A stretch of 64,000 bases of DNA from Psychrobacter okhotskensis (lineage in GTDB: Bacteria; Pseudomonadota; Gammaproteobacteria; Pseudomonadales; Moraxellaceae): positions 1-64,000 of the forward strand of contig NZ_JABRVQ010000010.1 of NCBI RefSeq assembly GCF_013248965.1. The letters run 5' to 3'. Positions 3,062-5,443 of this stretch are shown here, piece after piece. The position numbers and the translations under genes were made by a program. Numbering within the stretch: the first letter of the stretch is position 1; the number at the start of each line of letters is the position of its first letter. A model generated the notes under the pieces. The model was not told the origin of the DNA. It ran no database searches and saw only the letters and a list, made by a program, of their open reading frames with translations.

Positions 3062-5443
3062 TTAGTCAGCGATATCAAAACGATCGGCGTTCATTACTTT
3101 ACTCCAAGCGCCGACGAAGTCATGAACGAACTTCTCTAAATTGTCATCCTGCGCGTATAGCTCAGCATAAGCGCGTAGTATAGAGTTGGAGCCAAACACT
3201 AAGTCCACACGGCTCGCTTGCCATTTCGTTTTTCCAGTGCCACGTTCGCGTACTTCATAAAGGTTAGAGGTGTTACGAACGTCGTCGCTGGTTTTGATAG
3301 GATGCCAAGTGTTATTCATATCCGTCAGATTAACGAAGAAGTCATTGGTAAGCACGCCAGCACGCTCAGTAAAGACGCCATGTTGACTCTGACCATGGTT
3401 GGTATCGAGAACGCGCATACCACCAATCAATACCACCATCTCAGGAGCAGTTAAGCCCATCAACTGAGTGCGATCCAGCAGCATCTCTTCAGGTGATACC
3501 GCGTAGTCGCCTTGAACCCAATTACGATAGCCGTCGTGTAAGGGCTCCAAATCTGCAAAAGATTCCGCATCGGTCATTGATGCGTCAGCATCACCGCGAC
3601 CTGGGTTAAACGGTACTGTAATGTCTACGCCGGCATCATTAGCTGCCTGTTCAAGAGCGGCGTTACCACTCAACACAATAAGGTCTGCCAAGCTAACGTC
3701 TTTATCAAAGCCAGACTGGATGCTGGTTAACGTCTCGAGCACACGTTGCAATTGCTCAGGCTCATTGCCTGCCCAGTCTTTTTGCGGGGCAAGGCGAATA
3801 CGCGCACCATTGGCACCGCCGCGATAGTCTGAGGCACGGAAGGTTCGGGCGCTATCCCAAGCAGTGATAATCAACTCTCGGCGGCTCAAGTCACTGTCTA
3901 ATATTTGCGATTTTAAAGCTGCAATATCATCAGCGGTTAAGTCAGTATTGCCTTTAGGAACGATATCCTGCCATATGAAGTCCTCGCTTGGCACGTCTGC
4001 GCCTAAGTAGCGAGCTTTTGGACCTAAATCACGATGCGTTAGTTTGAACCACGCTTTGGCAAAGACCTCATCGAAGTACTCTGGATCTTGATGGAATTTC
4101 TCTGAAATTTCACGATAGATAGGGTCTTTTTTTAGCGCCATATCGGCATCGGTCATGATTGGGTTGCGGCGTACGCTTGAGTCATGCGCATCTAATGGGC
4201 GATCTTCTTCACGAATATCGGTAGGCTCCCATTGCCAAGCGCCTGCTGGGCTTTTGGTTAGCTCCCAGTTATGACCTAAGAGTAACTCAAAATAATTGTA
4301 ATCCCATTGGGTAGGATTGGTCGTCCATGCACCTTCGATACCGCTCGATACCGTATCGCCTGCATTGCCACTACCTTTAGGATTGCGCCAGCCTAAGCCT
4401 TGTTCGGCGACATCAGCTGCTTCTGGCTCATCTTCTAATATCGTCGCATCACCATTACCATGACATTTACCAACGGTATGACCACCAGCGGTCAACGCCA
4501 CGGTTTCTTCATCGTTCATCGACATACGAGCAAAGGTCGTACGCATATCTTGCGCTGTTTTGAGCGGGTCAGGGTTGCCATCGACCCCTTCAGGGTTGAC
4601 ATAAATCAAGCCCATTTGCACCGCTGCTAATGGGTTTTCGAGTGACGCACGATCTTCATCGCTATCGTAACGGTTTTCTGTAGCGGCGAGCCATTCACGC
4701 TCAGAGCCCCAGTAGATATCTTTTTCTGGATGCCAGATGTCAGCACGACCACCAGCGAAACCTAGGGTTTTAAAGCCCATTGACTCATAGGCCATGTTGC
4801 CTGCCAAAATCATTAAGTCAGCCCAAGACAGTTTATTGCCGTATTTTTTCTTGATAGGCCATAGTAAGCGACGCGCTTTGTCTAAGTTGACGTTGTCAGG
4901 CCAGCTGTTCAATGGCGCAAAGCGTTGATTACCAGTGTTGGAGCCGCCGCGGCCATCAGCACTACGATACGTACCAGCCGAATGCCATGCCATACGAATC
5001 ATCAAACCACCATAATGCCCTCAATCTGCTGGCCACCAGTCCTACGATTCAGTCATCAAATCTTTTAGGTCTTGCTTGACGGCTTCTAAATCTAATTGCT
5101 TAAAGGCTGCCGCATAGTCAAAGTCAGGATCCATCGGATTGGTCTTATTATCCTGCTGATGCAAAATATCCAAGTTCAAGCTGTTCGGCCACCAATCAAT
5201 TGCTGTAGAAGCAGCAGTAGTGTGTGCTTGATGCATGACAGGACAGCCGCCCATACTAGGGCGCTGCGGCGCATGCGTATGGTCTACGTTTTCACTATGA
5301 ATCGTCGGACCTTTATCATCACCTTGGTCATAAGTTGTGTTAGTGGCGGCACCATTATTGTTATTGCTTTCATGATCGATAGGGCAACGTGCAGCGTCTG
5401 GGGTCGCATTTTTGTCAGCTGAGCTGGGGGTCGAGTTGGACAT
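3062..5443 (-). pseudogene. katG: katG catalase-peroxidase interrupted by two in-frame stop codons
   Basis: Reading one frame from ATG 5441-5443 to 3062 gives a near-complete catalase-peroxidase with only two breaks: TAG at 5042-5044 and TGA at 5021-5023, separated by six sense codons (DWWPAD). Relatives have a sense residue at both places (usually Gln before DWWPAD and an aromatic residue after it), so each stop can be explained by one base change. Downstream, every catalytic element remains: distal RMAWH, the Tyr of [10 protein letters not shown], the Met of RMSMND (Met-Tyr-Trp adduct) and the proximal haem His in [10 protein letters not shown], plus the complete second domain. The N-terminal part carries an extended, His/Cys-containing lead (about 85 residues). 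Translation would stop at 133 residues. Reinitiation at TTG 5003-5005 or ATG 5000-5002 would yield about 646 residues without the N-terminal segment. Most likely a recent pseudogene. Confidence 0.85.

Follow-up and report, generated by a model that had tools for sequence, protein, structure and literature searches.

The stretch of DNA analysed here (the window) comprises bases 1-64000 of contig C10 of a Psychrobacter genome, a draft assembly of 3.38 Mb in 74 contigs with an estimated completeness of 99.99%. It carries katG, the gene of the catalase-peroxidase HPI, on the minus strand (3062..5443). As identified by sequence searches and from the loci of relatives, katG is flanked on its 3' side by a LysR-type regulator gene (1829..2761, minus strand) and on its 5' side by an AmpG-family transporter gene (6076..7734, plus strand). 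At the start of the contig, the first 112 bases of the window have counterparts at 84-99% identity in 6 of the 16 relatives searched, with four copies in G019, and may represent the end of a transposase gene.

The katG frame runs from 5443 to 3062 and consists of 793 codons followed by a terminal TAA; a previous sequence-only reading had counted 790. Translation of the frame confirmed the two nonsense codons reported in that reading, TAG at codon 134 (5042..5044, minus strand) and TGA at codon 141 (5021..5023, minus strand). Both are in the same frame, 21 bases apart and separated by six sense codons, and they interrupt what would otherwise encode the two-domain KatG protein. No further stop or frameshift was found when the whole frame was read, in agreement with the claim that the remainder is open. 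The ORF list, profile search and residue mapping define a pre-stop piece (5042..5443, minus strand) of 133 amino acids, an N-terminal fragment that lies ahead of all mapped haem-pocket residues. Downstream of the stops, a mechanically called ORF (3062..5005, minus strand) begins with TTG at 5003-5005 or ATG at 5000-5002. It retains the catalytic residues and lacks residues 1-146 or 1-147, depending on the start.

The part behind the stops is by itself sufficient for assignment to KatG, scoring 1083.2 bits with NF011635 (cut-off 981) and 1073 bits with TIGR00198 (cut-off 770.25). Eight catalytic residues are present in the frame and invariant in all 43 aligned Psychrobacter frames, as the sequence-only reading had maintained for the haem and Met-Tyr-Trp residues. 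We take these to be the distal R150, W153 and H154, the proximal H322, W373 and D472, and Tyr281 and Met307, presumably members of the Met-Tyr-Trp adduct. A ninth residue, R533, was Arg in 41 of the 43 frames, with uncertain mapping.

Upstream of katG, the Shine-Dalgarno site reads AGGAT (5451..5455, minus strand), compared with AGGAG in 40 of 42 relatives; the other two also differ. Judged from this comparison, AGGAT possibly weakens the katG translation start further. A conserved block with approximate limits 5561..5624 (minus strand), presumed from alignment with six relatives to be the promoter region, is retained, which counts against reading katG as a pseudogene.

Occurrence of the stops and selection on the katG frame

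A search of 105 genomes of the genus returned a katG match in 68, including the genome studied here, and the stop columns were aligned for 47 of the 67 others. All 47 have Gln at column 134 and Trp at column 141. The possibility raised by the sequence-only reading, that relatives share the same two stops, was thus not borne out by the alignment (0 of 47). A wider genome scan yielded at least 591 matching stretches. Among the best 80 of these loci, ten of which are from Psychrobacter and represent partly the same genes, none has a stop at either column: column 134 is Gln in 78, Arg in one and Lys in one, and column 141 is Trp in 79 and Tyr in one. Stops elsewhere occur in three of these best 80, twice at column 790 near the end and once at column 58. 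The latter (locus L091) aligns to the variable N-terminal part. In five genomes (G016, G027, G028, G076 and G101) katG had been flagged as containing stops inside. None proved internal once the genes were aligned, and these stops were therefore taken as terminal codons aligned to the end of the query. As far as tested in these alignments, both stops appear to be private to this genome, as expected of a lesion of recent origin.

Selection was analysed on 43 Psychrobacter katG frames, consisting of the present one and 42 others. The tip branch leading to this genome has a dN/dS of 0.071, identical to the background of 0.071 (2dlnL 0.00), and neutrality of the whole branch was rejected (2dlnL 163.6). 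For codons 142-793 the tip value was 0.051; values for eleven other tips ranged from 0.046 to 0.149. An apparently raised value in the N-terminal 133 codons (0.162, 2dlnL 4.05) disappeared when an N-terminal background was used. With region-specific backgrounds, the tip was not different in codons 1-133 (2dlnL 0.36) or in codons 142-793 (2dlnL 0.43). A neutral end phase was already disfavoured at 3% of the branch for the whole frame and at 2% for codons 142-793 with their own background (2dlnL 3.3 each). Apart from the stops, this frame departs at three columns (494, 592 and 597) from a residue shared by all 42 others, within the range of 0 to 6 such columns in the eleven other tips, and no cluster of extra substitutions was seen around the stops in the alignment. 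Since the tip evolves as the background does, little of its branch can have been neutral, and the break is therefore young, or not real. The proposal of very recent decay is upheld in that no excess of amino-acid change has accumulated.

The short neutral time allowed would accommodate ~0.5 nonsense hits by our own estimate, with a probability of ~0.09 for two or more. For two hits in such a gene, the probability of lying within 7 codons of each other is ~0.019, using three intact relatives as template. Two independent hits are thus unlikely to account for the stops, and a single clustered mutation or an artefact is possible.

These considerations bear on the alternative that the strain has an intact katG and that one or both stops are base-calling or assembly errors in a local low-quality stretch of the consensus. 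Such an error would explain why the frame shows no sign of relaxed selection and why it carries only two lesions, both point differences and so close together; the draft state of the assembly also speaks for it. However, when ~42 kb of the window was compared with long frames from five relatives (G053, G010, G031, G013 and G085), no frame but katG was interrupted. The other stops flagged in these ~42 kb lie upstream of the start codons of listed ORFs, and no frameshift was flagged there. The high estimated completeness of the genome, the intact state of its two other catalase genes and the distance of ~5 kb between the stops and the contig end also argue against an error, as does the deviating Shine-Dalgarno site, with the reservation that two of the 42 relatives differ there as well. 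On balance we consider a sequence error unlikely, although it retains appreciable weight.

Decoding of the interrupted frame

If both stops are real, translation of katG would end at codon 134, and the 133 N-terminal residues released would include none of the haem pocket. With another stop seven codons further on, chance suppression would be even less effective. Readthrough of TAG and TGA into full-length KatG, whether programmed or suppressor-mediated, is one of the outcomes suggested by the sequence-only reading and is in keeping with a frame that is open and conserved to either side of them. In contrast, recoding signals would be expected to be shared, and neither stop occurs in the 47 fetched relatives or in the best 80 of the at least 591 loci. 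By anticodon, no suppressor of TAG or TGA was present among the 42 tRNA matches in the genome, a result that covers the RF00005 model only. A scan with an amber-suppressor pattern gave 17 matches, compared with 42 for a reversed control pattern. These are unfolded pattern matches, and the tRNA scan is the better test. Moreover, both codons are used for ordinary termination: among the 40 of 58 window ORFs tabulated for stop usage, 23 end with TAA, 14 with TAG and 3 with TGA. No other internal stop was found in the compared part of the window, and no Rfam match was obtained in the window at the gathering threshold. Finally, two different stops in succession would multiply the losses. A changed genetic code was rejected on the same grounds, as TAG and TGA end ordinary ORFs of the window, the stops are not shared and no suppressor tRNA was found. 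Readthrough is therefore extremely improbable, and the katG stops hold nothing new on decoding.

Reinitiation at TTG 5003-5005 or ATG 5000-5002 would generate a KatG of ~646 residues with the haem pocket. Six codons separate the TGA from an in-frame ATG that is closely preceded by a GGTGG stretch, and the downstream codons are under strong constraint. However, both restart candidates belong to the normal frame, as codons 147 and 148. The ATG and the preceding Gly-Gly (codons 145-148) are conserved in the 14 relatives displayed and do not represent a new start. Background-level constraint is also expected after any recent break. In addition, the product, short of 146 or 147 residues, would be devoid of a segment, ahead of the distal helix, that is preserved in every one of the 47 fetched relatives. 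The restart proposed in the sequence-only reading accordingly finds no support, and we regard it as very improbable. In summary, both readthrough and restart are unlikely: none of the 42 tRNA matches is a suppressor, and the candidate restart codons have a normal coding role.

A related view is that a shortened or leaky KatG, for example a restart product keeping the haem pocket, is still made from the two-stop allele and still selected, in a minor role beside the two other catalases. We consider this highly unlikely as well.

Other catalases and the distribution of katG in the genus

A search of this genome revealed no second katG. Two intact monofunctional catalases (PF00199) are encoded: a probable small-subunit, KatA-type enzyme (C1:251189-252334, in a 524-codon frame) and a probable large-subunit, KatE-type enzyme (C7:5591-6748, in a 699-codon frame), typed by size and by the clade scheme given in PMC3291989. 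According to the same article, Psychrobacter piscatorii T-3 carries a clade 2 catalase gene but expresses only its clade 3 one (data not shown there), which would fit redundancy among catalases. Among the matches listed, 4 of the 105 Psychrobacter genomes have no PF00199 match.

The site of katG was compared in 35 of the 37 genomes of the 105-genome set that lack the gene. In 33 of the 35, the LysR and AmpG flanks were both matched on one contig, with a spacing between the matches of 99-262 bases in 23 genomes, 320-369 in 7 and 825-1729 in 3 (G067, G087 and G011). Of the remaining two, one has its flanks on separate contigs (G086) and the other gave no LysR match (G080). As the flanks adjoin without katG, the gene is missing from the same site in most of these relatives. 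In a single-gene tree of glnE from 31 of the 105 genomes (the 30 best matches and G053), the nearest genome is G085 (support 0.996), followed by G007; both lack katG and have katA. Either the present genome belongs to a lineage that is losing katG, or katG re-entered an empty site by recombination. On the AmpG side, the segment 5875-7734 shares 90-92% identity with G066 and G089, both without katG, whereas the identity of its other matches is about 69-79%. This difference makes recombination at the AmpG-side flank plausible from the sequence comparison.

The co-occurrence of katA and katG was counted in the 97 genomes of the genus that are at least 90% complete (G048, G050, G075, G095, G062, G080, G081 and G087 fall below this threshold). 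katA is present in 32 of 33 genomes without katG, compared with 15 of 62 with intact katG, and in both genomes with a broken katG, the present one and G071. The association has a Fisher p of 1e-12, a value that ignores relatedness; its true weight is lower, because 11 of the 15 genomes with katA and intact katG cluster tightly together in the glnE tree. An initial count that included all 105 genomes had given katA in at least 32 of 37 without katG, at least 15 of 62 with intact katG and at least 3 of 4 with broken katG (p 0.059 vs intact), the fourth, G075, holding a fragmentary katA. The retention of both genes in 15 genomes and the absence of both in G005 count against redundancy as the cause of katG loss.

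The split or broken katG genes of G048, G050, G075 and G095 were set aside, all four genomes being less than 90% complete. In G050 and G075 glnE is also in pieces, pointing to assembly error, and in G095 katG is split over two contigs. In G048 (84% complete), which has no katA, the katG frame is broken near query codon 127 (contig C58; L017 and L052). The glnE of G048 is unbroken, so the katG break is unexplained by assembly; if real, it would be a counterexample to the idea that katA covers the loss of katG. G055 contains a second, fragmentary glnE-like copy (G055:C1:3159382-3160932) beside an unbroken one.

The suggestion that another catalase suffices is thus supported: two intact PF00199 catalases are present, and katG is missing in katA-bearing relatives. 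Redundancy as the cause goes beyond these observations. Loss of katG would be tolerated in a cell holding both a KatA-type and a KatE-type enzyme, and it would fit the genus, in which the gene is often missing from this LysR/ampG site in genomes that have katA.

Comparison with intact and degraded katG genes

We conclude that katG of this genome is a very recent pseudogene, its loss probably tolerated by virtue of the other catalases, and assign this reading a probability of roughly three in four. We infer the reality of both bases, the missing KatG activity and redundancy as the cause. If real, the locus would capture gene loss near its beginning, within a genus whose carriers of a small-subunit catalase often have no katG at this one site. 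It would also offer an uncomplicated, testable example of a monofunctional catalase taking over from a bifunctional one. In the open-licence literature searched, including passages of PMC3291989, PMC5646247, PMC8857425 and PMC12708612, we found no description of a broken Psychrobacter katG.

The closest comparison is with the intact katG of other Psychrobacter genomes (e.g. G053 and G026), which lies in the same LysR-katG-ampG locus, in the same frame and with ~90% protein identity. In contrast to the present gene, these intact genes have no internal stops, and the relatives' Shine-Dalgarno site is typically AGGAG. G071 (99% complete) has a degraded katG at the same LysR/AmpG site and, as here, katA-type and katE-type catalases. 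Unlike the near-intact frame described here, however, only fragments of katG remain in G071, and its decay is presumably older. Outside the genus, katG of Mycobacterium leprae is a pseudogene, lost by inactivation within massive genome decay. The two cases share an inactivated catalase-peroxidase gene, whereas here no frame other than katG is broken in the ~42 kb of the window that were compared. Most likely, the present case is an early stage of ordinary gene loss and adds one more example to a known kind.
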